Virus record (IMG/VR): IMGVR_UViG_3300020578_004039
Coordinates: 1-49,519 of that record
Length of the DNA: 49,519 nucleotides
DNA from: a virus
Reading direction: 5' to 3' (one strand)
This document shows positions 20,596 through 45,800 of this stretch, one piece after another. Both the position numbers and the translations under genes were made by a program. The notes under the pieces are model-generated. The model worked only from the letters and a program-made list of their open reading frames with translations. It made no database searches and was not told the origin of the DNA. Every line of letters starts with the position of its first letter. Position 1 is the first letter of the stretch.

Positions 20596-22569
20596 ATGAA
20601 AATTAAAAGGTCGTACACTTTGTGTGCCATGACTTTGGCCTTGAGTCTGGTATGTGATGTCACCTGGGCCGAGTCTGATATCAATTCAGTGTTGTCACAA
20701 ACCGGTGCCCAAGCAGCCCGTGATCGGGGTTTGACCGGACGGAACGTGTCTGTGGCTGTGATTGATCAAGGTTTTGATCTCACACATCGAGACATCATCA
20801 GATCCAATCTCGTCACAAGAAATTTTCAAGGTGGGGGATCTGTGACCTGGGGCAGTCATGGCACGGCCATGGTGGGCATCATCGCAGCCAATGTTAATGG
20901 TCTGGGCACTGTGGGTCTGGCGCCACAAGTGCGATTGATTTTGGCTCAGGCCGGTTCAGGCGGTAGCGTCCGCAGTCTCACCACACAAGCTGTGGCCAGA
21001 AGTCTTGACTGGGCCAGTGCTCAAGGTGCCGCAGTGGTTAACATGAGTTTTGGGGCTCCTTACACTGCGGCAGACATCTCTGTCATCAAACGAAATTTCA
21101 ACACAGGCATTTACTTTGTTAAAAATTTGCCCATGGTCGTAAACCCCAATGACTATAAATTGGCCACAGATCGCGGCTCCATATTGGTGATGTCAGCAGG
21201 GAATCAGGGTCTGGGCTACAGTGAATTTCCTGCACAGTTGGTGTCACGAGTTGATCAAAATGGCCGATTACTGTTATCGGGCCGTGCCATTGTGGTGGGA
21301 GCCGTGAATTCAAACAATGAAATAGCTGATTTCAGCAATAGAGCCGGACATATTTGTCAGTCCAGTTCGGGCACACGTTGTTTTGACACACATTTGACCA
21401 AAAATTTTTATGTGGTGGCACCCGGAGTCAATGTGATTTCCAGCTTGGCCAATCAAGTCAGTGCAGTACCACACAGCACATCATTGGTCAGTGGCACTAG
21501 TCCGGCTGCTGCTGTGGTCACAGGAGGCATGGCTCTGTTAAAGCAGGCCTGGCCTCAACTCAGACCCGAACAATTGGTGCAGTTGGTGCTGAGCACCACA
21601 CGCGATCTGGGTGCGCCCGGTGTTGATGACGTGTATGGTCGTGGTCTAGTGGATTTTGATAAAGCCACTAGGCCTCAAGGCCCAGTGGTGTTGGCACCAA
21701 AAACACAGAATCTCGGCGGGGGTGTGGTTGTGAAATCCAGTCCAGCTCGTGTATTAGTCTCTGGGAATATCACTCAGAGTCTGAAATCTTCCTCTGTGCT
21801 GAAAAACACACAAGTTATAGATCAATATCAGCGTAACTACAGCTGGGACATTTCTCAGTCGATCATGCCATCTCCGGCAGTGGTGGATCCATTATCACCA
21901 TATTTGATTTTTTCGTCGCACATGGTCCGTGAGGCTCAAATTCACGATTGGAAAATTTCTATTTCCACAGGTGACCATGTCACTGCTGTGAACCTTCGAC
22001 CCCGTCATGATCACGGCGGATTCATCTTTGAACTGGGCTCACAAAGTCAATCGCAAGGTTTTTTAGACAATCATGCACAGGGTGTGATGAGCATCAAGAA
22101 CTCATCCACTACCTGGCATTTTTTGGGATATCAGCTGCCCATCACTGATCACACACAGTTCACTGCTAGATTTGGTCAGGGCCGAACTGTTGTGGCCACA
22201 AATTCTGACTCCATGATGCAGATAACAGATCCTGTGATGTCTCAGACTTTCACATTGGGCATCACACGTGACAAATGGCTGTCACACAAGGATCAAGTCC
22301 AATTTGGTTTTGGTTCAGGCATGAAAATCACCCGAGGTCGAGCTGAAATCACCGCAGTCACTGGATACAAATTTGATGATACATCTGGAGATCATGTGCA
22401 AGCTCGTCCGGTGATCACACAAGAATCTATTGATTTAAGATCTCGACAAAACCCACACTTGTACTTTACATACATGATGCCTGTGAATGATGACAGTCAA
22501 CTGTCTGTGAATTTGACTGCCAACGCCTCCAATCACAGACTGGGCGTGAAATACAACATGAGATTTTGA
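20596..22569 (+). CDS. Secreted subtilisin-family serine protease with a barrel-like C-terminal region
   Basis: The 657-residue protein starts with a Sec signal (KIKRSYTLC, hydrophobic core, cleavage near TWA-ES). The subtilase triad is complete: Asp in VAVIDQGFD, His in WGSHGTAMVGII and Ser in SGTSPAAAVVTGG. From about residue 380 the sequence turns into alternating polar and hydrophobic strands and ends LGVKYNMRF, with the terminal Phe expected of an outer-membrane barrel. The plan (signal, S8 domain, roughly 260-residue barrel) is that of subtilase autotransporters. A strong early-type promoter drives it. It is rare in phages. Roles could include remodelling the host surface or degrading external proteins. 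It was probably taken from a Gram-negative host. Confidence 0.85.
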   Translation: MKIKRSYTLCAMTLALSLVCDVTWAESDINSVLSQTGAQAARDRGLTGRNVSVAVIDQGFDLTHRDIIRSNLVTRNFQGGGSVTWGSHGTAMVGIIAANVNGLGTVGLAPQVRLILAQAGSGGSVRSLTTQAVARSLDWASAQGAAVVNMSFGAPYTAADISVIKRNFNTGIYFVKNLPMVVNPNDYKLATDRGSILVMSAGNQGLGYSEFPAQLVSRVDQNGRLLLSGRAIVVGAVNSNNEIADFSNRAGHICQSSSGTRCFDTHLTKNFYVVAPGVNVISSLANQVSAVPHSTSLVSGTSPAAAVVTGGMALLKQAWPQLRPEQLVQLVLSTTRDLGAPGVDDVYGRGLVDFDKATRPQGPVVLAPKTQNLGGGVVVKSSPARVLVSGNITQSLKSSSVLKNTQVIDQYQRNYSWDISQSIMPSPAVVDPLSPYLIFSSHMVREAQIHDWKISISTGDHVTAVNLRPRHDHGGFIFELGSQSQSQGFLDNHAQGVMSIKNSSTTWHFLGYQLPITDHTQFTARFGQGRTVVATNSDSMMQITDPVMSQTFTLGITRDKWLSHKDQVQFGFGSGMKITRGRAEITAVTGYKFDDTSGDHVQARPVITQESIDLRSRQNPHLYFTYMMPVNDDSQLSVNLTANASNHRLGVKYNMRF

Positions 22570-26089: not shown

Positions 26090-27496
26090 ATGGCATATTC
26101 AACAAAAGTATTGGACCACTACGAAAACCCTCGTAATGTAGGCAGTTTTGCCAAAGATGATATTGATGTAGGTACGGGCATGGTGGGAGCACCTGCTTGT
26201 GGTGATGTAATGAAATTACAAATAAAGGTAAAAGATGGTGTCATTACAGATGCCCGCTTCAAGACATACGGATGTTTAACCAGTAATGCCCCTATTAATA
26301 CGCCATCAAATGTCAAAAAAATAAAAGACCTAAAAATCGGCGACGAAGTATTAGCATGGAACGGAAAAGAAATAGTTACTCAAAAAATTAAAGATATAAT
26401 CACTCGTGTAATGCCTGTTGAAGATCTTCTAGTAATAAAGTTTCAAAGAGAAACCAGCAGAAAGGGAATCTCGCCGGGCACATTTAATTTAATATGCACT
26501 AAAGAACATATTTTTTGGAATGCTGATAATAAACCAGTTGAAGCGCAAACATTGATTCCGGGACAGGAATTATATGAAATAACTGAATATGAACTAAGAA
26601 AGTTAACTAATGTTCGTCATAGAGATTGGTTAAAAGAAAAAAATAGCCAAAGGATAAAAGAGTGGAATTTAAGATTTGATCATTCCGTTCTACCACAAAA
26701 CCAACCAGGCCATATTTGTAAAAATATGGAAGAGAAAAAAATAAAATCTTCTCGGGCAGCAAAAAAGAAATGGGCAGATCCTTCCTACATTGAAAAATGG
26801 TCTGAAGGGATGAAAAATAGAGATTGGAGTAAACCAACTTCTGTTGAAACAAGATTTATTGATTTGTTCGAAGAATACAATGTAGGCGCAAGATGGAGTG
26901 CCGGAAAGATTTGGCTTCAGAGTGCAGATGGTCCAGTTAGCCCAGATTTTATCGTACCGGGTAAAAAGAAATGTATAGAAGTTTATACGAAAAACATGCC
27001 TACATTCATGCAGGATCGTTCTGATAATTCTAACTATATTGAAAAAAGGTCAGAACAGTTAAAATCAGCAGGGTATGAAAGTTTATTTTTGGCGATTGAA
27101 GAAATCGATCAAGCAGTTGAAAGAGTAAACAATTTTGTACATAACGGCATTAAAATAGTATCTGTTGAACCAGTATCTCATCATAATCAACTAAGAGGCT
27201 GTGAGAGAGACGGAAAGAATGTTGTAGTATATGATTTAAAATTAGAAAACGGTGCTCATGTTTTCTTCTCAAACAGAGTAGGATCACATAATTGCGGATC
27301 AGCGATCGCAAGTTCATCACTGGTCACAGAATGGGTCAAAGGCAAAACACTTGATCAAGCAGGAGAAATTAGAAATACGCACATTGCAGAAGAATTGGCT
27401 CTCCCACCTGTGAAAATTCACTGTAGCATTTTGGCAGAAGATGCCATCAAGGCTGCAATAAAAGATTATCAAATAAAGCATGATGCTGTCAACTAA
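26090..27496 (+). CDS. iscU: Fe-S scaffold protein IscU interrupted by an intein
   Basis: IscU is the scaffold on which [2Fe-2S] clusters are built. Joining residues 1-61 to 402-468 gives a complete 128-residue IscU, close to the E. coli protein in length and sequence, with Cys37 (PACGDV), Asp39, the Cys in YG-CGSA and the Cys in KIHCSIL. The LPPVK motif that HscA recognises is also intact. Residues 62-401 are an intein inserted exactly before the second cluster-binding Cys, so that Cys is also the splicing nucleophile (+1). The intein is more AT-rich than the exteins. The gene follows the A-type carrier and precedes another, forming a phage-borne Fe-S set. Confidence 0.95.
   Translation: MAYSTKVLDHYENPRNVGSFAKDDIDVGTGMVGAPACGDVMKLQIKVKDGVITDARFKTYGCLTSNAPINTPSNVKKIKDLKIGDEVLAWNGKEIVTQKIKDIITRVMPVEDLLVIKFQRETSRKGISPGTFNLICTKEHIFWNADNKPVEAQTLIPGQELYEITEYELRKLTNVRHRDWLKEKNSQRIKEWNLRFDHSVLPQNQPGHICKNMEEKKIKSSRAAKKKWADPSYIEKWSEGMKNRDWSKPTSVETRFIDLFEEYNVGARWSAGKIWLQSADGPVSPDFIVPGKKKCIEVYTKNMPTFMQDRSDNSNYIEKRSEQLKSAGYESLFLAIEEIDQAVERVNNFVHNGIKIVSVEPVSHHNQLRGCERDGKNVVVYDLKLENGAHVFFSNRVGSHNCGSAIASSSLVTEWVKGKTLDQAGEIRNTHIAEELALPPVKIHCSILAEDAIKAAIKDYQIKHDAVN
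26273..27292 (+). mobile_element. Intein (340 aa) with a putative homing endonuclease domain, in iscU
   Basis: It begins with Cys1 (CLTSNAPINT) and ends VYDLKLENGAHVFF...VGSHN before Cys+1, matching intein blocks A, F and G with the penultimate His and terminal Asn. VLAWNGKE and the ICTKEH stretch correspond to block B-like parts. The middle has a NUMOD-like region (SRAAKKKWADPSYIEKWSEG) and a PD-(D/E)XK/Vsr-like core: TRFIDLFEEYNV, SPDFIVPGKKKCIEVYTK. No LAGLIDADG motif is seen. Splicing is required to restore IscU. Confidence 0.92.
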
Positions 27497-32509: not shown

Positions 32510-32733
32510 GTAAAGCAGATTTGATACGTTTATCAGGCTTGATCACAGAAATTTTACCTAATGCCATGTTCAAAGTACAGCTAGAAAACAATCACATGGT
32601 CACTGCTTATTTGGGTGGAAAATTGCGCAAAAATGAAATAAACATCACCACTGGAGATTCAGTAGAATTGGAACTCAGCCCCTATGATTTGACTCGTGGT
32701 CGAGTGGTTTACAGACAAAGACACCATGGCTGA
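32506..32733 (+). CDS. infA: Translation initiation factor IF-1
   Basis: The 75-residue product is a single S1/OB domain: IRLSGLITEILPNAMFKVQLENN, then TAYLGGKLRKNEI, then TTGDSVELELSPYDLTRGRVVYR. This follows bacterial IF-1 from end to end, including the final Y-D-L-T-R-G-R-I/V motif. It binds the ribosomal A site during initiation. Start is TTG overlapping the previous stop, with GAGG upstream, so expression is coupled. Phage IF-1 genes are known but uncommon. Confidence 0.92.
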   Translation: MSKADLIRLSGLITEILPNAMFKVQLENNHMVTAYLGGKLRKNEINITTGDSVELELSPYDLTRGRVVYRQRHHG

Positions 32734-33271
32734 AATCAGACATCTCATTGATTTAATCGAAGCCAAAAGTTCTAAAAAACTAACATTGGAGGATTTGCCT
32801 TATGGTATGTCAGCATTGGCACCAGTGATTTCTCAGCGCAATCTCACCAATCACTACGACAAATTGGCGCGTGGTTATGTGGATCGTTACAATCGTGGTG
32901 AAGGTGACCTCACCTTCAATGAAGCCGGTGCAGAACTACACAACTTGTTTTTTGCCCAATTAAGAGCACCGCGGTCACCCAATAATCCCACAGGAAGCAT
33001 AGCAGAACTAATAAAGAGAAAATTTGGCAATTTTTCTGGATTCAAGTCAGAGATTCTCAAAACAGCCATGAGTCTGCAAGGCAGTCATTGGATTTATCTC
33101 AGTCGCAATGGCGAGATAAAAACCATAAAAAATCATGCTCGTAGGAATGACATAAAATTGCTAATTGATTGGTGGGAGCATGCATGGTATCTAGATTATG
33201 GTGCTGATAAAAAACGCTATCTTGATAATTTTTGGCGTGTGGTTAATTGGTCGGTGATCAGCAGTAGATAA
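32726..33271 (+). CDS. Iron/manganese superoxide dismutase-family protein
   Basis: The 181-residue sequence follows the Fe/Mn SOD plan: LEDLPYGMSALAPVIS, NHYDKLARGYV (first metal His), AGAELHNLFFAQL (second His), GSHWIYLSRNGEI and IDWWEHAWYLDYGADKKRYLDNFW (Asp and third His). The inter-helix region LFFAQLRAPRSPNNPTG is atypical: the usual NHxFFW is replaced by LHNLFF. Phage homologues share this. It overlaps infA by 8 bp. Activity against superoxide is likely but the metal is uncertain. Confidence 0.85.
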   Translation: MAEIRHLIDLIEAKSSKKLTLEDLPYGMSALAPVISQRNLTNHYDKLARGYVDRYNRGEGDLTFNEAGAELHNLFFAQLRAPRSPNNPTGSIAELIKRKFGNFSGFKSEILKTAMSLQGSHWIYLSRNGEIKTIKNHARRNDIKLLIDWWEHAWYLDYGADKKRYLDNFWRVVNWSVISSR

Positions 33272-33656: not shown

Positions 33657-33713
33657 AGTCTGTGAAGTGCTCAATTGAGGCTTTACGCAATCTTGCTTAA
33701 TAAAGGAGAACAT

Positions 33714-35624
33714 ATGAGCAAAGTCATCGGTATCGACCTAGGTACCACTAACAGTTGTGTGGCCATCATCGAAAATGGCCAATCTCGAGTAATTGAAAAT
33801 TCAGAAGGCGCCAGGACCACTCCCAGTATTGTGGCCTACACTGACGCAGAAGTCTTGGTTGGTGCACCAGCAAAACGACAAGCAGTGACCAATCCCCGAA
33901 ACACCATCTACGCTGCCAAGCGTTTGATTGGTCGACGTTTTGAAGAACCCACAGTGCAAAAGGACATCAAACTCATGCCTTATGCCATCATCCAAGCAGA
34001 CAACGGCGATGCTTGGATTGAGGCCAATGGTGAAAAGTTGGCTCCCCCACAGGTGTCAGCAGAAGTATTGCGTAAGATGAAAAAAACAGCAGAAGATCAT
34101 TTGGGCCATGATGTCACACAAGCTGTGATCACTGTGCCTGCTTACTTCAATGACAGTCAGCGTCAGGCCACCAAAGATGCTGGTCGTATTGCTGGCTTGG
34201 AAGTACTCAGGATCATCAATGAACCCACTGCTGCTGCGCTGGCTTATGGTGTGGACAAAGACAGTAAAGTGGATCGTAAGGTAGCAGTATACGATTTGGG
34301 TGGTGGAACATTTGACGTGAGTATCATCGAAATCTCCAATGTAGATGGCGATAAACAGATTGAAGTACTCAGTACCAACGGTGACACATTCCTTGGTGGT
34401 GAAGATTTTGACCAGCGCTTAATGGATTACTTGATTGATGAATTCAAACGCGAACAAGGCGTCGATCTCAGTCGCGATGTTTTGGCTCTGCAACGACTCA
34501 AAGAAGCTGCAGAAAAGGCCAAGATTGAACTCAGCAGCACCAACAGCACCGCAGTGAATTTGCCTTATGTCACTGCTGATGCCAGTGGCCCCAAGCACAT
34601 GAACATCAATGTCACCCGTGCCAAGCTCGAGGGCCTTGTGGATGAACTGATTACACGCACAGTGGGACCTTGTGAAACAGCCATGCGAGATGCAGGTGTC
34701 AAAACATCGGACCTAGACGAAGTAATTCTCGTGGGCGGCATGACTCGCATGCCCAAAGTACTGGAAACTGTGGAACGCTTGTTTGGTCGTGCACCGCGTC
34801 GCGACATCAATCCCGATGAAGCAGTGGCAGTGGGGGCTGCTGTGCAGGGAGCAGTGTTGTCTGGTGATCGCAAGGATGTGCTGTTATTGGACGTGACTCC
34901 TTTGAGTCTGGGCATTGAGACTTTGGGTGGAGTCATGACCAAACTGATTCACAAAAACACCACTATTCCCACCAAGCACAGTCAGGTCTTTTCCACTGCC
35001 GAGCATAATCAGCCGGCTGTGACCATTCGTGTGTTTCAAGGTGAACGTGAATTGGCTCAACACAATAAATTGTTGGGTGAATTTAATCTTGATGGCATTC
35101 CGCCTGCGCCTAAAGGCCAACCGCAGATTGAAGTCACATTTGACATCGATGCCAATGGCATCTTGAAAGTTCGTGCCACAGACAAAAACACAGGCAAGGA
35201 CAATCACATCACCATCAAGGCCAGTTCCGGTCTCAGTGAAGCAGAGATCCAGCAAATGGTTCGAGACGCAGAAGAAAATGCCGAAGCCGATCGGAAAGTC
35301 ATTGAATTGGTCAATGCTCGCAACAGTGCCGACAGTCAAATTGATTTTGTGAAAAAAGAATTTGATCAGTACCGATCTCAATTGCCAGAAGCCGAAGTGA
35401 CCAAGATCGAATCGGCCATGACTGCTTTGGAGGAGGCCAAACGCGGCGATGATCCTGAAGTGATTCGAACTCGTGTCACTGAATTGATGCAGTCCACCAA
35501 TGAACTATTCCGTGTGAAATCAGAGGCCGAACAGGCAGCTGCCTCTGCCACTGCCAGCACTGACTCTGGTGATGCCACCACAGTCAATGCACAAGCAGCT
35601 GAAAAATCTGCCGAAACCAAGTGA
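33714..35624 (+). CDS. dnaK: Chaperone DnaK (Hsp70)
   Basis: A complete 636-residue DnaK. The ATPase domain has [56 protein letters not shown] and [10 protein letters not shown]. The substrate-binding domain has [20 protein letters not shown] and the helical lid, ending in a low-complexity Ala/Ser/Thr tail without the canonical EEV/K-rich end. No grpE or dnaJ is in the window, so it must use host partners. A complete dnaK is unusual in a phage; sequence character is proteobacterial. It heads a proteostasis cluster with hsp20 and clpS. Confidence 0.97.
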
Positions 35625-36151: not shown

Positions 36152-36180
36152 CAGGCAGTGTGTTCTGCACTGCCTGTCTT
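36152..36180 (+). terminator. Strong hairpin between hsp20 and clpS
   Basis: CAGGCAGTG (36152-36160) and CACTGCCTG (36168-36176) form a perfect 9-bp stem followed by TCTT. It is probably a partial terminator; a new transcript start for clpS is not evident. Confidence 0.55.
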
Positions 36181-36199
36181 ACTCAAAAAAGGTATAAAA

Positions 36200-36502
36200 A
36201 TGAGCACTCAAACAGCGATTCAAAATCGTGTATTACTAGATGTCAAAGAGCCACCCCGATTTCGTGTGATTTTCCTAAATGATGATGTGACCACGGTGGA
36301 ATTCGTCATTGAAAGTCTGATAATTATTTTCCATAAAACCAAAGACGAAGCCAGAGACATCACTTTGGAAATTCAAAATCAAGGATCTGCTGTGGTGGCA
36401 GTATTGCCTTACGAAATCGCCGAACAAAAGGGCATAGAAGTGAGTGTTTTGGCCAAACGCAATGGATTTCCATTAGTGGTAAAATTAGAACCTGAACAAT
36501 AG
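36200..36502 (+). CDS. clpS: ClpS adaptor protein
   Basis: The 100-residue protein carries PPRFRVIFLNDDVTTVEFVIESL, the ClpS N-end-rule binding region (conserved Asn-Asp-Asp), and GSAVVAVLPYEIAEQK, the ClpA-facing part. The downstream ligand residues are also placed normally, but the usual His in helix 1 (MxxVHxxG) is replaced: FHKTKDEARDITLEIQNQG. ClpS directs ClpAP to substrates with destabilising N-termini. A phage copy could steer host proteolysis. ATG 36200 is chosen for the AAAGGTAT ribosome site. Confidence 0.9.
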   Translation: MSTQTAIQNRVLLDVKEPPRFRVIFLNDDVTTVEFVIESLIIIFHKTKDEARDITLEIQNQGSAVVAVLPYEIAEQKGIEVSVLAKRNGFPLVVKLEPEQ

Positions 36503-37657: not shown

Positions 37658-38944
37658 ATGAATATTGCAGTGCCCACTGAAAATTTTGTCAAGGAAATAA
37701 CCAATAACTTGATCAATACCATGACCACAGAAATCAGACAACAGGTGGTGCATGATGTGGCCACAGCAGTGATGAATTTTGATCTAAGTGCGGAAATCCG
37801 AGCTCAGATCAACGGTGCTGTGAGCAGGGCCATTGAACACTACATGGATGTGGACAGTCAGGGTCGAGTCAATCCTTATGTGAACAATCCTGTGACAGGC
37901 GCTGTGTTTAATCAATTTGTCAACAGGACCGAACAGTTTTTACAAAGTTTGATACAGCGTGTGAACAATGATATAGTGGCAGATCTTTTCACCAAGTTGA
38001 ATTCCATCAACATACATGACATGATCATTGAAGAAACCAGACTCACTGTGGAGCGATTGTTGCAAAGATCCACCTGGCAATTTCCACCACGCAGTATTCC
38101 AGTGGAAACTTTACAAACAGAGCATATTCGTATTCCTGCCAGCAACTTACTGCCGGGCATGATCACAGGATTTCACAGTGTGGGCATTCAAGATCGGGCC
38201 AGTGAGGCCCAACTCACCATCACAGACAGTATCACTGTGGTGGAAAATCGTTTGGTGGCACACAGTTTAGACATTCATGGTGATCTTGCCATCAAAGGCA
38301 CAGTCAACCCAGAATTCATTCAAGATATAGTGAAAAGAACAATTTCAGATATTCAAACTGCACACAAAGATGGCGTCTATGATCAATATTGTGATCGTGT
38401 GATCACCAAACTCACTGATCAAGGTCTAGATGTGAGTCTGGTGAAAATTCATGGTGAATCATTGGTCATAGACCAAACCATGAATCCACGTGTGACCAAA
38501 AGTAACTTAAAGCGAGTGGGTTTATTGGAAGAATTACAGGTGTCCGGTGAAACAGTGTTGGATCACACTGTGTATGTGAGTAATAAACGCATGGGTGTGA
38601 ACACTCTTGAACCGGAACGAGTATTTGACCTTTGGGATCAAGAGGTTCAAGTGATCATGAGCAAGCGTCAGCGTGATGTGGCCATGATAGGCACACTGCG
38701 CAATCAGCGAGTGATTTTGAGTAGCAATAATCGTGACAATGTGATCTTAGATCCAGATGGTTCCTGTACAGTGTCAGAATTGCACATAGGCAAGATCACA
38801 CACAGCAGCAGTGAAACCAGACCCCGAGACCAAAAACCTCAAGGGCACATTGTATGGAACAGTCAACCCAGTCTTGGACATGCCATTGGTTGGGTCAGTC
38901 TAGGAGGAGCTCGTTGGGCTCAATTTGGCACGATCCAAGACTGA
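37658..38944 (+). CDS. Probable virion (tail or fibre) protein, 428 aa
   Basis: The N-terminal 150 residues are long helices, likely coiled coil. The middle is beta-rich (ITDSITVVENRLVAHSLDIHGDLAIKGTV), a repeated short-strand pattern typical of fibre shafts. The end VYVSNKRMGVNTLEPERVFDLWDQ resembles the IGxxTPxxxLDV segment before peptidase-type fibre tips, and the last 25 residues are Trp/Gly-rich (WVSLGGARWAQFG). The exact part of the particle is not identifiable. Confidence 0.65.
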   Translation: MNIAVPTENFVKEITNNLINTMTTEIRQQVVHDVATAVMNFDLSAEIRAQINGAVSRAIEHYMDVDSQGRVNPYVNNPVTGAVFNQFVNRTEQFLQSLIQRVNNDIVADLFTKLNSINIHDMIIEETRLTVERLLQRSTWQFPPRSIPVETLQTEHIRIPASNLLPGMITGFHSVGIQDRASEAQLTITDSITVVENRLVAHSLDIHGDLAIKGTVNPEFIQDIVKRTISDIQTAHKDGVYDQYCDRVITKLTDQGLDVSLVKIHGESLVIDQTMNPRVTKSNLKRVGLLEELQVSGETVLDHTVYVSNKRMGVNTLEPERVFDLWDQEVQVIMSKRQRDVAMIGTLRNQRVILSSNNRDNVILDPDGSCTVSELHIGKITHSSSETRPRDQKPQGHIVWNSQPSLGHAIGWVSLGGARWAQFGTIQD

Positions 38945-39005: not shown

Positions 39006-40037
39006 ATGACCATCAAACGCATAGGATTTCCTTGTAAATGGATTGATCGTCCTGATCAAATTGAAGGTATCAAGCCCAAGGATGATTGCCAAAAATACAA
39101 CAGACGTACCACCACAGTGGCCTGGTTGAATCGGCAAACTCGATCAGCAGCTGAACAGCGACTCTGGGATCTCATGGAAATCAACATCGAGTCCTGTCGT
39201 ATGTTGGTGGAGCGTGTGGGTGAACTGCCACTGGCTCAGCACATGGTGCGTCTCAGCAGCGACATATTGCCGGTGTTTACTGAGCCAACTTGGCGCTACT
39301 ATTGGCAACAGTCAGATGTACGAAATCGTGCTGAGTCGTTGTTCCGACAGGTTGGCGATGCTGCTAGACAACTAGATGTACGACTGAGTTTTCATCCTGG
39401 ACAATTCTGTGTACTGGCCAGTGAAAGCGATGACATTGTGGAGAGATCAATTGAAGAATTCGAATACCACGCGACCATGGCGGCGTGGATGGGTTTCGCT
39501 CGCCAATTCCAAGATTACAAGATCAACGTACACATCTCGGGTCGTAGGGGGCCCGATGGCATACGAGCGACCTACAATCGACTCAGCCCAGAAGCTCGCA
39601 ACTGTATTACAATTGAAAACGAAGAAATAAGCTATGGACTCGATGACTGCCTTCAACTTTGTGATATTATTCCTATTGTTCTTGATATACATCATCATTG
39701 GATCCGTGAAGGCGAATATATCTCGCACAGAGATGATCGTGTTAAGAGGGTTATCGATAGTTGGCGCGACCGGCGCCCTGTTTGCCATTATAGTGTTAGC
39801 AGGGAAGATATCTTGGTTGACCACTGCGTTCTTACACTTCCCAATCATAAGGTTCTCTTAGAATCCGGACATAAAAAACAAAAACTACGTGCTCATAGTG
39901 ATTTCTATTGGAACACAGCAGTCAACGATTGGGCACTTACTCACAATGACTGGGCAGACATCATGTGCGAAAGCAAGTCAAAGAATTTAGGAAGTGCTCA
40001 ACTATATGATCAACTCAAGTCTACTAATTTGTTATAA
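39006..40037 (+). CDS. uvsE: UV DNA damage endonuclease
   Basis: The 343-residue TIM-barrel enzyme shows the UVDE metal-site blocks: RLSSDILPVFTE, LSFHPGQFCVLAS, INVHISGRRG, ITIENEE, PIVLDIHHHWI and the late HSDFYWN. It nicks 5' to cyclobutane dimers and other lesions, an alternative to photolyase and UvrABC. Its presence suggests exposure of the virus or host to sunlight. There is no ribosome site; the upstream region is AAATGGCAAATC. Confidence 0.9.
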   Translation: MTIKRIGFPCKWIDRPDQIEGIKPKDDCQKYNRRTTTVAWLNRQTRSAAEQRLWDLMEINIESCRMLVERVGELPLAQHMVRLSSDILPVFTEPTWRYYWQQSDVRNRAESLFRQVGDAARQLDVRLSFHPGQFCVLASESDDIVERSIEEFEYHATMAAWMGFARQFQDYKINVHISGRRGPDGIRATYNRLSPEARNCITIENEEISYGLDDCLQLCDIIPIVLDIHHHWIREGEYISHRDDRVKRVIDSWRDRRPVCHYSVSREDILVDHCVLTLPNHKVLLESGHKKQKLRAHSDFYWNTAVNDWALTHNDWADIMCESKSKNLGSAQLYDQLKSTNLL

Positions 40038-40642: not shown

Positions 40643-43351
40643 ATGACTCTACAACCCAAAATAGGCGATATTATTGAAATTGAGCAGGGAGATTCCTGTT
40701 TTGAAGTGCGTGTCATGGGCATTACCAAAGATGGATATTTGTGTGAACAAGACAACATCCAAGGTGCTATTCTACTAGAGGGAACAGGATTAGATGAAGC
40801 TGATGCTACTGACATCGAAGATTTCTTACGCAGTGGTGGACGAGTTGAGCGTGTCCCATTTAAGAATACTAGAAAAGAAAAAGGTGCTGCTTTTAGATTT
40901 GGTAGCAAGCACATTGGTGCAGTTGGAGGATCAGGTAAAGGTATGGCGGAAATGGATAATCGTACTGCTGCTGGCGATAGGCGTGAACAACGAGCATATA
41001 GTCCAGAAAAATTAAAACAGCGTGAAAAAGAATTACAAGCAGACCTAAAAAAAGTAAGCCCTGAAATGCGTAAAAAATTACGCTTACCAGAACCAAAAGA
41101 AGGTGTGGCGGAAGGTCAGGCGGACATTGAAGAGTCCGGGCTACAGTACTATACTGGTGTTAAAAAGCATGGTGCAAAGTATATGAAACTGGCTGCCAAG
41201 GCCGGGCGTGAAGGTGCTAGCCAAGAAGAACTAGGCAGACTGCGTGATCGTTATAGCAAGGCAGAAAAGACCGACGAAGGTAGATTTGGTCGTGATAGAG
41301 ATCCATTTTATGGTGGTGATGACTTTCGTAATCGAGAGCGTAATGTAGGAGTAGAAAATGAAAGAAATAACTATCAAGTAGTGGTAAATGGAAAACTTTG
41401 GAAAGTTTTCGCTGATAGACAGCAAGCCATGAATATAGCTAGAAGTTTAAAAATGAAAGGTAAGGATGTAGAAGTTTTCCCTACTGGAGCCCCTCCATCA
41501 CAAAGTATGTCGGAAATGGAAGGTCATCAAAAAACTTTTAAAGTCGTGTATTACAGTCCAAAAACTGACAGAAATGTCAGTAAAATAATCAGAGCCAAAA
41601 ATGAATCCGACATCTGGGACCAATTTAAAGTCAAAGGTATTGATGTTGTTAGTGTAAAAGAGCAAGGTGTGGCGGAAGCCGGAATTGATCCTACCCTAGG
41701 GCCGCGTGGTAGGGATCGAGACATGAGAAGAATTGATCCGGGACCAGAAGAAAAATATTATTTTCAAGTGCCTTTTGAACTGAAAACTCTGGCCAAAGAC
41801 ATGGGATTGCGTTGGGATGCGGATAAGAAAAAATGGTTTACCACAAGCATTTTGACTAAAACACAAGCAGAAAAAAAATTCAAGCCATGGAAAGGTGTGG
41901 CGGAAGGCTCCGAGCAATATTACGCTATTGTCCATAAAGTAAATAACAAATCACTAAGCACACATCGTGATTTGGAATCAGCTAAAGATGAATGGCGTGG
42001 TTTAGATCAAAATCAAAGACAATTTTATAAAGTAGTTACTACTAAAAAAGCGCCAAAAGATTGGTCAATGAAAGAACAAGGTATGGCGGAGGACGCTGAT
42101 TTAGACCAAGGTTTCGCCCAACCCAACACATTAAAAGAATATTCGTTTGCTGAAAAACAAACTTATATGAATTTCCTAGCGGCAAAGGCTAAAAAATACG
42201 GTGTTCAATCTTTGAAACCTGAAGAACGTGCTGAATTAATGGCCTATCTGCAAGCTCAAAAAATGACTAAAGAACAGCAAGGTGTGGCGGAAGATGATTT
42301 AGACGAGGATTGGCGCAAGAAATTAGCCGCTGCGGGCATGGCCGGCATGATGGGTCTCAGCGGTGCAGCTGGTGCAGCAGATCGTGTACCGGATACTGCC
42401 AAAGAGCCTATCATAGCTACTGTAGTCATCGACGGTGAAGCGAGGCGATTAGATCTCACTCCTAAAGGATTTGATGATGTCAAAGAAGCAGAAAGATTTT
42501 TAAAAAAATTCTTGGCGGATCGAGGTATAAAAGATTGGCAGGCCAAGATAGAACGCAGTAAACCGGGCACAGGCAAGTATGAAAGATTGTCTATCTCAGG
42601 AATGGGAGGTTTAGAAAGCATACAAAGTCGGCAAGGTGTGGCGGAAGGCTCATTGAACGAATTAAGTACTGGTACACTGAAGAGTTATAGAGAAAAATCC
42701 AATCGTGAAGTCAATGCCTTTAAAGAAAAAGAAAAATCAGATCAACTGTCAGACAAAGATTTTTTTAAAAAGCAAGATAGACTGATGGGTATTACAGGAG
42801 CCTCAAAAAGAATTGACAAACGAGGTATAACAGGTGTCGGAGAAGATTCACTTAATGAATTATTTGAACCACAAACAGAATACTATGAGTTGTCAAATGG
42901 TGATATCATACAAGCTTCGTATAGACCTATGCCAAATCAAACTGCCATGCCCGGCACAGTCAAAATAAAGCACGTTGATCCTGCCTTAATGCCCAAAGGA
43001 TCTAGTTTTGATAGTACTGGTAGCATACAACGATGGGACAAGGCTCCTGATGGAGTAAAACAGGAAATAGAAAAATTTGTGGGACAAGCAAATAAAGTTT
43101 CACATGTGACCGAAGCCGAATATCAAGGTCGTAAAGTGCCCTTGGGCAAGAAAATGGCAGGAGATGTCAAAAAATCCAAAGTCTATGTTCGTAAACCAAA
43201 TGGCAAAGTGGTCAAAGTAAATTTTGGTGACAAGAACATGACAATCAAAAAGTCCAATCCAGCTAGACGCAAGAGTTTTCGTGCTCGTCATAACTGTGCA
43301 AACCCGGGACCTCGTTGGAAGGCCCGATATTGGTCATGCAGGTCATGGTAA
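40643..43351 (+). CDS. 902-residue modular protein punctuated by GVAEG motifs, DUF5872-like C-terminus
   Basis: Unrelated segments of about 20-135 residues are separated by (Q/K)G(V/M)AE(G/D/A/M). Visible segments: an N-terminal beta domain, a charged helical piece (REKELQADLKKVSPEMRKKL), a domain with YQVVVNGKLWKVFADRQQAM, a related TFKVVYYSPKTDRN piece, a DUF5710-type domain (YYFQVPFELKTLAKDMGLRW), a YYAIVHKVNNKSLS domain, a helical LKPEERAELMAYLQAQ, an Ala/Gly-rich hydrophobic stretch followed by a small alpha/beta domain, and two pieces opening with SLNEL. The last 60 residues (FGDKNMTIKKSNPARRKSFR, NCANPGPRWKARYWSC) match a C-terminal domain common in phages. V-A-E/G fits the T4-type prohead-protease site. 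A head-packaged polyprotein is my preferred reading; a scaffold or decoration protein is possible. Confidence 0.8.
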   Translation: MTLQPKIGDIIEIEQGDSCFEVRVMGITKDGYLCEQDNIQGAILLEGTGLDEADATDIEDFLRSGGRVERVPFKNTRKEKGAAFRFGSKHIGAVGGSGKGMAEMDNRTAAGDRREQRAYSPEKLKQREKELQADLKKVSPEMRKKLRLPEPKEGVAEGQADIEESGLQYYTGVKKHGAKYMKLAAKAGREGASQEELGRLRDRYSKAEKTDEGRFGRDRDPFYGGDDFRNRERNVGVENERNNYQVVVNGKLWKVFADRQQAMNIARSLKMKGKDVEVFPTGAPPSQSMSEMEGHQKTFKVVYYSPKTDRNVSKIIRAKNESDIWDQFKVKGIDVVSVKEQGVAEAGIDPTLGPRGRDRDMRRIDPGPEEKYYFQVPFELKTLAKDMGLRWDADKKKWFTTSILTKTQAEKKFKPWKGVAEGSEQYYAIVHKVNNKSLSTHRDLESAKDEWRGLDQNQRQFYKVVTTKKAPKDWSMKEQGMAEDADLDQGFAQPNTLKEYSFAEKQTYMNFLAAKAKKYGVQSLKPEERAELMAYLQAQKMTKEQQGVAEDDLDEDWRKKLAAAGMAGMMGLSGAAGAADRVPDTAKEPIIATVVIDGEARRLDLTPKGFDDVKEAERFLKKFLADRGIKDWQAKIERSKPGTGKYERLSISGMGGLESIQSRQGVAEGSLNELSTGTLKSYREKSNREVNAFKEKEKSDQLSDKDFFKKQDRLMGITGASKRIDKRGITGVGEDSLNELFEPQTEYYELSNGDIIQASYRPMPNQTAMPGTVKIKHVDPALMPKGSSFDSTGSIQRWDKAPDGVKQEIEKFVGQANKVSHVTEAEYQGRKVPLGKKMAGDVKKSKVYVRKPNGKVVKVNFGDKNMTIKKSNPARRKSFRARHNCANPGPRWKARYWSCRSW
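40940..42647 (+). repeat. Dispersed in-frame DNA motif GGTGTGGCGGAAG (7 copies)
   Basis: Near-identical 12-13-bp copies begin at 40940 (GGTATGGCGGAA), 41102, 41666, 41894, 42080 (GGTATGGCGGAGG), 42281 and 42635, with weaker relatives near 41505 and 42832. Identity at the DNA level, including third positions, while the intervening sequence is unrelated, points to recent copying or recombination at the motif rather than only protein-level selection. Confidence 0.85.
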
Positions 43352-43678
43352 ATGAGACTATACGAATTATTTGAAGCTGGCTTGACCTATCGTGGCTACG
43401 CCTGTACTCAGGACTGCTCGGGACATCAAGCCGGTCATGACTGGGCCATGCGATACGATGTGGGTTCAGACAATTGTCCTTACAGCAACAACAGTTTTTG
43501 GGAAGGCTGTGTCAGCAAAGATGAACCGGGATCTGACCAAACAGAATCCGTTGTAAAAGAAAAATGGACCAACAAGTATAAAAATAACATAGACTGCTCA
43601 CGTCCCCAAGGGTTCAGCCAGCGAGCTCATTGTCAGGACAGGAAAAAAAATCACATGTCCGGCAAGTCCAGCAAATAG
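43352..43678 (+). CDS. Cys-rich phage protein with a capsid-targeting-like N-terminus (108 aa)
   Basis: It opens MRLYELFEAG, like the T4 capsid-targeting peptide (M-K-x-x-x-E-F-x-x-E before the cleavage point) and like SLNELFE in the preceding gene. The next block, TYRGYACTQDCSGHQAGHDWA, is a small Cys/His domain present in other phages by recollection. The rest is polar with Cys in CSRP and HCQD. It directly abuts the modular gene (stop then ATG), suggesting co-translation. Confidence 0.65.
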   Translation: MRLYELFEAGLTYRGYACTQDCSGHQAGHDWAMRYDVGSDNCPYSNNSFWEGCVSKDEPGSDQTESVVKEKWTNKYKNNIDCSRPQGFSQRAHCQDRKKNHMSGKSSK

Positions 43679-45101: not shown

Positions 45102-45800
45102 ATGTATGAAAATTTATCTGATTTAGGTTATTCTCCCAGTTATAGAACTGCCCAAGAGATCAATCAGGCCATGGCCAGAGTGTACAATCACATGTTTTTG
45201 GCAGTGGCCATGAGCATGATTGTGAGTCTGGCCATGGCCTCAAGCACTGCGGCCATGGCCATTTTCTTTGGTCCCATTACCAAATGGATCACAATTTTCG
45301 CCCCCTTGGCTTTTGTGTTTGCACTGCCTTGGGCCATCAATTCCAGTGTAAATCGCTTGGGAGCTCAGCTGATCTTGCTGGCTTTCGCTGCTGTCATGGG
45401 CTTGAGCATGAGTGCTTTGATGAGTTTGTTCACTGGTGCCAGTGTATTCACGGCGTTTCTTGGTGCTGCGGTGTTGTTTGGCAGCATGAGTCTATATGGT
45501 TATTTCACTGGTCGTGATCTGCATCATTGGGGCAAATATTTGTTTTTTGCAGTCTTGGCCATTGTGATTGTCAGTGTGATCAATGTGTTCATAGGCAGCA
45601 GTGTGATGCAGATGGTGATTTCCGCTGTGGCCATAGTGTTGTTCATGGCCTTGACTGCTTATGACACTCAGCAGATCAGACAAACGCTCTGCAGAGCAGA
45701 TGAAAATCACCGAGCCGAAGTCATGGGAGCCTTGAGTTTATATTTGAATTTTATAAATATATTCACCAGTCTACTGCATCTCACTGGAGATCGCGAATGA
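45102..45800 (+). CDS. Bax inhibitor-1/YccA family membrane protein
   Basis: The 232-residue protein has seven hydrophobic helices and the family's N-terminal approach (INQAMARVYNHMFLAVAMSM) plus LTAYDTQQIRQTL and ALSLYLNFINIFTSLLHLTG near the end, the signature of bacterial YccA/YbhL proteins. YccA modulates the FtsH membrane protease, and lambda CII stability depends on FtsH, so a phage copy might protect membrane proteins or block FtsH; this is inference. Ribosome site AAGGTC. Confidence 0.92.
   Translation: MYENLSDLGYSPSYRTAQEINQAMARVYNHMFLAVAMSMIVSLAMASSTAAMAIFFGPITKWITIFAPLAFVFALPWAINSSVNRLGAQLILLAFAAVMGLSMSALMSLFTGASVFTAFLGAAVLFGSMSLYGYFTGRDLHHWGKYLFFAVLAIVIVSVINVFIGSSVMQMVISAVAIVLFMALTAYDTQQIRQTLCRADENHRAEVMGALSLYLNFINIFTSLLHLTGDRE

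Follow-up and report, generated by a model that had tools for sequence, protein, structure and literature searches.

How should a viral gene be read in which unrelated short segments follow one another, divided by a motif of a few repeated residues? Such a gene (40643-43351, + strand, ATG start, 902 aa, about 11 modules) lies in the window, by which the whole stretch of DNA analysed is meant, a fragment of 49.5 kb from the record of an uncultured virus. The original prediction held that VAE/ (the slash marks a cut or boundary throughout) was a prohead-protease site, that the segments were head cargo, and that the shared DNA motif drove their swapping. The gene likely encodes a polyprotein of internal head proteins, which would be processed by the prohead protease, its diversity arising from recombination at a shared linker; that it is cleaved, packaged and delivered, and that the agent is homologous recombination, is inferred, no proteomics being available.

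Five GVAE and two GMAE motifs were identified in the 902-aa protein, and three or more G[VM]AE were reached in 0 of 20,000 composition-preserving shuffles. The residue after the motif was G, A, D or M and the constant part was G-V/M-A-E, so that GVAEG, the form first proposed, was strictly true for 3 of the 7. Weaker hydrophobic-x-E boundaries were SMSE (aa 291), GVGE (aa 734) and HVTE (aa 824), and splitting at all of these sites together with every GVAE and GMAE gave eleven modules (Table 1), which are established together with their exact boundaries. The junction-type sites spanned aa 103-824, which met the expectation of a hydrophobic-x-Glu before each mature protein. Only two families were recognised, DUF5710 (aa 371-402, E 7e-7) and phrog_7595 (aa 825-902, function unknown). 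The original prediction held as to near-identical in-frame motifs separating segments (five exact copies of GGTGTGGCGGAAG and two GMAE variants), a DUF5710-type domain, two SLNEL openings, and a next gene beginning MRLYELFEAG. An AlphaFold model of module 11 from 48 sequences reached a pLDDT of only 64, with nothing below E = 1 by Foldseek against PDB, and a single-sequence model of the full-length protein was uninformative (pLDDT 44).

Table 1. Modules of the polyprotein gene, the neighbouring gene and the linker DNA motif in the window
Feature	Position	Strand	Remarks
Module 1	40643..40951	+	aa 1-103; ends GMAE; without CTS-like leader
Module 2	40952..41113	+	ends GVAE
Module 3	41114..41515	+	ends in variant site SMSE
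Module 4	41516..41677	+	ends GVAE
Module 5	41678..41905	+	DUF5710 at 41753-41848; ends GVAE
Module 6	41906..42091	+	ends GMAE
Module 7	42092..42292	+	ends GVAE
Module 8	42293..42646	+	ends GVAE
Module 9	42647..42844	+	opens SLNEL; ends in variant site GVGE
Module 10	42845..43114	+	opens SLNELFE; ends in variant site HVTE
Module 11	43115..43351	+	AEYQG...FRARHNC...W; phrog_7595
Neighbouring cargo-like gene, 108 aa	43352..43678	+	leader MRLYELFE/A, then VVKE/KWTNKYK module
Canonical DNA motif GGTGTGGCGGAAG	41102..41114	+	exact copies also at 41666, 41894, 42281, 42635
Two-mismatch variants of GGTGTGGCGGAAG	40940 and 42080	+	encode GMAE

Several modules were recovered in other proteins. Module 2 was 77% identical over 57 aa to modules of L242 and L259, there located after QGVAED, and L299 has it too; module 4 was 61% identical to a module of L176 with GVAE on either side, and module 6 was about 90% identical to a module of L038 located after GVAE. 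The homologues of module 1 (its first ~50 aa) come after the leaders MRLDEFTDND (L291) and MKINQVIVDE (L262), or after PVAE (L051). L291 is a 132-aa protein made up solely of modules 1 and 11 of the window protein, joined at SLLE/A, and L262 has the same two end modules with three GVAE motifs in between. The window protein looks like this L291/L262 frame holding more modules, a likely relation inferred from sequence alone.

At the DNA level, GGTGTGGCGGAAG was matched 8 times in the window at up to 2 mismatches versus 0.57 expected, with 7 of the 8 inside the polyprotein gene. GVAE was the core of a DNA element, AAAGAGCAAGGTGTGGCGGAAGG, present in well over 100 uncultured phage contigs, and at least ~120 stretches were returned by each of two IMG/VR scans for the linker. 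In 24 long records picked for carrying the motif 89 copies were counted, with 0 for the reversed control pattern. Of the 256 copies of GGTGTGGCGGA in the loci retrieved, 255 were in the GVAE reading frame. Codons were counted with an unbiased pattern, degenerate at all synonymous positions of KEQGVAE, in 104 copies from loci recovered solely by this degenerate scan. Val was encoded by GTG in 90% (background 20%), Ala by GCG in 83% (background 9%) and the Glu of KEQ by GAG in 78% (background 20%), and the Gly, Gln and Lys codons were likewise almost fixed. Since synonymous codons are nearly fixed, the DNA itself is kept uniform. Similarity around the motif fades within ~7 bases upstream and ~15 downstream, and the conserved element extends over more than 13 bp. 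A 30-mer linker query against a 50,697-record phage collection gave only partial matches of 16-19 bases (E ≥2), and a clear copy of the linker DNA was not found in any cultured phage of the collection searched, which may explain why the system was missed. Only one contig of the GTDB genomes had the 22-bp linker, L322 (WGNT01000147.1) of a Cytophagales MAG; this contig may come from a phage binned along with the MAG and may point to a host.

Swapping of modules at the linker is contemporary. From 284 motif-bearing proteins 877 segments were obtained, counted only at ≥25 aa, and those flanked by two motifs had a median of 75 aa. Segment families in at least two contigs numbered 114, 106 of them with differing neighbours. 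In 36 pairs of internal modules, the DNA identity was ≥90% (up to 100% over 182 nt) with both neighbours unrelated. DNA homology stopped within 6 nt of the motif at 17% of left and 25% of right internal ends, compared with 0.1% of random positions; many other homology ends lay away from any motif, as would be expected from older events and non-canonical junctions. Two records from two metagenomes, G033 and G034, are related to the window via a shared intein-containing NifU gene; around the NifU gene, 13.4 kb of the two were identical, and around the polyprotein gene the identity was 99.8-100%. In G034 the polyprotein gene has one 201-bp module more than in G033, bounded by the motif. This tandem-repeat difference might be an artefact of assembly collapse.

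It could be argued that the DNA motif is primary, being the site of a dedicated recombinase, a homing enzyme or a mobile cassette system, with VAE incidental. The almost fixed synonymous codons and the movement of modules with boundaries at the motif fit this explanation. However, an enzyme site would be expected also out of frame and between genes, junctions of different DNA retain xxE, and no cassette-borne enzyme was noticed, without a systematic search having been made. A DNA motif with an incidental VAE is considered very unlikely.

The constraint on the junctions was also seen at the protein level, for which homologous module starts without GVAE were gathered. Among 482 internal homologous junctions of this kind, [VILMFT]-x-E stood exactly at the boundary in 240, compared with 3-9% when the same test was shifted by 1-6 residues, and near-N-terminus homologous starts without GVAE had it at the boundary in 29 of 54. 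Roughly half of the non-canonical boundaries were without hydrophobic-x-E, partly from rough boundary calls. For module 11, 71 distinct homologous contexts were available, with Glu at P1 in 70 and a P3 residue from the set VILMFYT in 65. A KWSxKYK module inside other proteins was preceded by DVAE, PMSE, HLSE, ELNE, DITE, LLAE, VLDE or SLKE, and by VVKE in the window gene next to the polyprotein gene; as a stand-alone module it had the leaders MKAYEFITE and MRAKEFISE. The hydrophobic-x-E constraint is shown by these data, and GVAE is probably one DNA-fixed form of a general hydrophobic-x-E site of gp21 type, cleavage itself being inferred. A point against this is that L or I is favoured at P3 in T4 processing, V being less typical.

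Module 11 was found as a short single-module gene in 29 of its 71 contexts, behind a leader of up to 16 residues (usually 10), and these proteins were mostly of 87-93 aa. Leaders such as MKTFKQYITE, MLSFLQFIAE and MLHFKEWLAE match the form of T4 IPII and IPIII, both of which start with MKTYQEFIAE/A (from NC_000866). Targeting of T4 IPIII depends mainly on the N-terminal part of the leader, notably residues 4 and 7, and processing is controlled by residues 8 and 10 (PMC9026906). In the 26 distinct leaders of module 11, an aromatic residue was present at -7 in 23 and at -4 in 18, a hydrophobic one at -3 in 24, and Glu at -1 in all 26; at the 40 internal junctions of the same module the corresponding counts were 4, 2, 34 and 39. 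This split is what would be expected if internal junctions need processing and not targeting, again as inferred from sequence alone. T4-like leaders are a shown feature of the group, a CTS-like leader being present in 67% of multi-motif proteins versus 17% of other ORFs. The 902-aa protein starts with MTLQPKIGDI, which does not qualify as a capsid targeting leader; the neighbouring gene does have a CTS-like leader. It is possible that the leader of the window protein was lost, or that targeting relies on another part.

Other terminal features were observed. The N-termini of the polyproteins L254, L094, L165 and L304 read ...YxLE/SASGGGTSAG..., a sequence similar to the mature N-terminus predicted for gp23 of these phages (LAE/TASAGTTSAG). 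Short KRLAGL-like C-terminal tails were seen in some cargo proteins (L423, L424) and in the gp22-like scaffold (L314-L320); a C-terminal tag of the form [RK]LAG[L], in common with gp22, was enriched yet rare, and perhaps acts as a second core-binding tag. In the window, a Fe/Mn superoxide dismutase (32726-33271; PF02777, E 1e-22) has an extra N-terminal stretch of CTS-like form, MAEIRHLIDLIE/A, and could be a candidate head-packaged enzyme.

Most modules had no known match. Pfam analysis of 71 multi-motif proteins revealed GNAT acetyltransferase, NT5C nucleotidase, ribosome modulation factor (RMF), ParB-like nuclease (ParBc_2), a DnaJ zinc domain, a TAT signal and several DUFs, mostly with one member each. 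L204 combines a CTS-like leader, a GNAT domain (E 3e-6) and two more GVAE-separated modules without family match. The N-terminal module family of L222 was 24% identical over ~300 aa to a protein of jumbo phage PA5oct, annotated as a virion structural protein, and its relatives. No defence-type domains were detected by PADLOC. A late promoter upstream was set aside, the enrichment of TATAAAT/ATAAATA being weak (20% vs 14%). Elsewhere in the window, relatives of the tail-fibre-like gene (37658-38944) gave no matches, and the NifU-like protein (26090-27496) has an apparent intein (Hint-type match from ~residue 57), with close relatives both with and without the insert. Phage-borne genes for Hsp70 (33675-35624), ClpS (36158-36502), a UvdE-type UV endonuclease (39006-40037) and a Bax1-I family protein (45102-45800) were also present.

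Domains of this sort could suggest an uncut multidomain protein, in which the repeats are flexible, recombination-prone linkers of a large effector, injected or intracellular (a polyvalent protein), without any protease at work. Multidomain injected phage proteins with GNAT, ART and ParB are known and N4 vRNAP is packaged uncut (PMC5512222), and the GNAT, NT5C, RMF and ParB-like domains of some related proteins fit as well. However, a plain linker needs no P1 Glu and P3 hydrophobic residue at non-homologous junctions, and the T4-CTS-like leaders carry the same terminal hydrophobic-x-E. The uncut protein is thus held to be unlikely, and the reading as a cleaved polyprotein is retained.

Of 33 records, comprising the window and 32 others with the motif, 10 had Peptidase_S77 (T4 gp21), and the same 10 gave a strong match to PF07068 (gp23). 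Two further motif-bearing records, G037 and G039, had both, and each of the 12 motif-bearing records that have a gp23 gene also has a gp21-type S77 protease, a co-occurrence that is shown. In phages that hold them, the genes of gp21, gp22-like scaffold and gp23 lie side by side; the N-terminal region of gp23 has LAE/TASAG, LTE/SASAG or LKE/NASAG and the core-like protein upstream of gp21 often ends in VAE/S, all these sites being predicted, not measured. The remaining records had neither gp21 nor gp23, save a weak gp23 fragment in G027, and among records without gp21 or strong gp23 a portal gene was seen in G015 only, at the contig end. In the window record gp20, gp21 and gp23 were not found, and neither gp21 nor gp23 was found in the nearest relatives found, G033-G035; a profile built from five gp21 proteins gave no divergent gp21 in 18 records lacking one. 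Such records, including the window and G033-G035, are probably incomplete, which is not shown. The large motif-bearing records G014 (262 kb) and G016 (343 kb), where gp20, gp21 and gp23 were not found, and G034 (200 kb), where gp21 and gp23 were not found, may be incomplete genomes or have another head type.

Cleavage by another protease of host or phage, after infection and not in the prohead, would fit a window that has a subtilase gene (20596-22569) and no gp21. Against this, the form of the junctions fits the gp21 consensus and the CTS-like leaders, and S77 accompanies gp23 in every motif-bearing record that has it. Cleavage after infection is regarded as very unlikely, and the prohead protease is preferred. 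The proposals of the original prediction are supported on the whole. VAE/ as a prohead-protease site is backed, without direct cleavage evidence, by the hydrophobic-x-E kept at homologous junctions lacking the motif, and is sharpened to one form of a general junction; head cargo is backed, without direct packaging evidence, by the same modules occurring as single genes behind T4-CTS-like leaders; and swapping by the shared motif is backed by DNA homology that stops at it and by segment shuffling between related genomes. An always encoded gp21-like protease was borne out where gp23 is present; in the window and the other records, which are probably incomplete, no gp21 was found. Corrections concern the length of the DNA element, the absence of head genes from the contig, and the absence of a CTS-like leader from the protein itself.

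Among known systems, the T4 internal proteins IPI/IPII/IPIII and Alt, processed by gp21/Peptidase_S77, are similar in the 10-aa leader with aromatics at 4 and 7 and hydrophobic-x-Glu at 8-10, in the variable cargo, and in the T4-type head genes of relatives. T4 has one mature cargo protein per gene, whereas here up to 11 consecutive modules share a DNA linker, with a cleavage-type junction inside the protein for each of them. The polyvalent proteins found in phages and in conjugative elements (Iyer et al. 2017, PMC5512222) likewise have several unrelated small domains per polypeptide, are thought to be injected, and share some domain classes (GNAT, ParB-like). They differ in being multidomain and in places autoproteolytic, and a repeated prohead-protease site or conserved DNA linker is not described in the relevant sections; a polyvalent protein has at least two disparate domains, and DUF5710 is the sole recognised domain of the window protein. 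Head proteins of SPN3US/phiKZ also undergo multiple cuts after Glu per protein (PMC10052503), but the extra cuts there fragment propeptides and those here would separate apparent cargo modules. Mosaicism of phage proteins such as tail fibres and endolysins (PMC10684548) is similar in its still ongoing domain shuffling, but the swap boundary here is a conserved linker also readable as a protease site, and head cargo is absent from the outlier classes named in the relevant sections. Repeated prohead-protease sites separating cargo were not found described in the open-access literature searched, most subscription papers being outside reach.

In the proposed mechanism, the precursor would be directed to the core of the prohead; across the group, this would usually be the task of an N-terminal peptide like the T4 capsid targeting sequence (CTS). 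The gp21-type prohead protease would then cut after Glu at every hydrophobic-x-Glu junction (V-A-E in the canonical linker), and the small proteins freed in this way would stay in the head until their ejection along with the DNA. Meanwhile the linker DNA would serve as a short homology patch for in-frame gain, loss and exchange of modules, by which the linker would be kept uniform and each recombinant would remain cleavable. By analogy, operation like the T4 internal protein system is likely, presence in virions and ejection being inferred. A bolder reading is favoured only by a narrow margin: uncultured T4-type and jumbo phages would draw on a common fluid pool of small injected proteins, with cassettes exchanged via a single ~22-bp linker that is both recombination patch and prohead-protease site, so that any recombinant would automatically be packaged and released, as plug-and-play cargo across many phages.

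In T4, a tag of 10 residues has been shown to be able to bring a protein into the phage head. If the present reading is true, natural phages would use this tag principle modularly, each gene carrying many cargos and the linker allowing them to be exchanged safely. The sequence rule, hydrophobic-x-E junctions flanking shared modules, would allow hundreds of proteins of unknown function to be picked out as candidates for injection and host takeover. Tailed phages would then possess a testable polyprotein mechanism, by which a single gene could supply the head with many different proteins, to be injected into bacteria.
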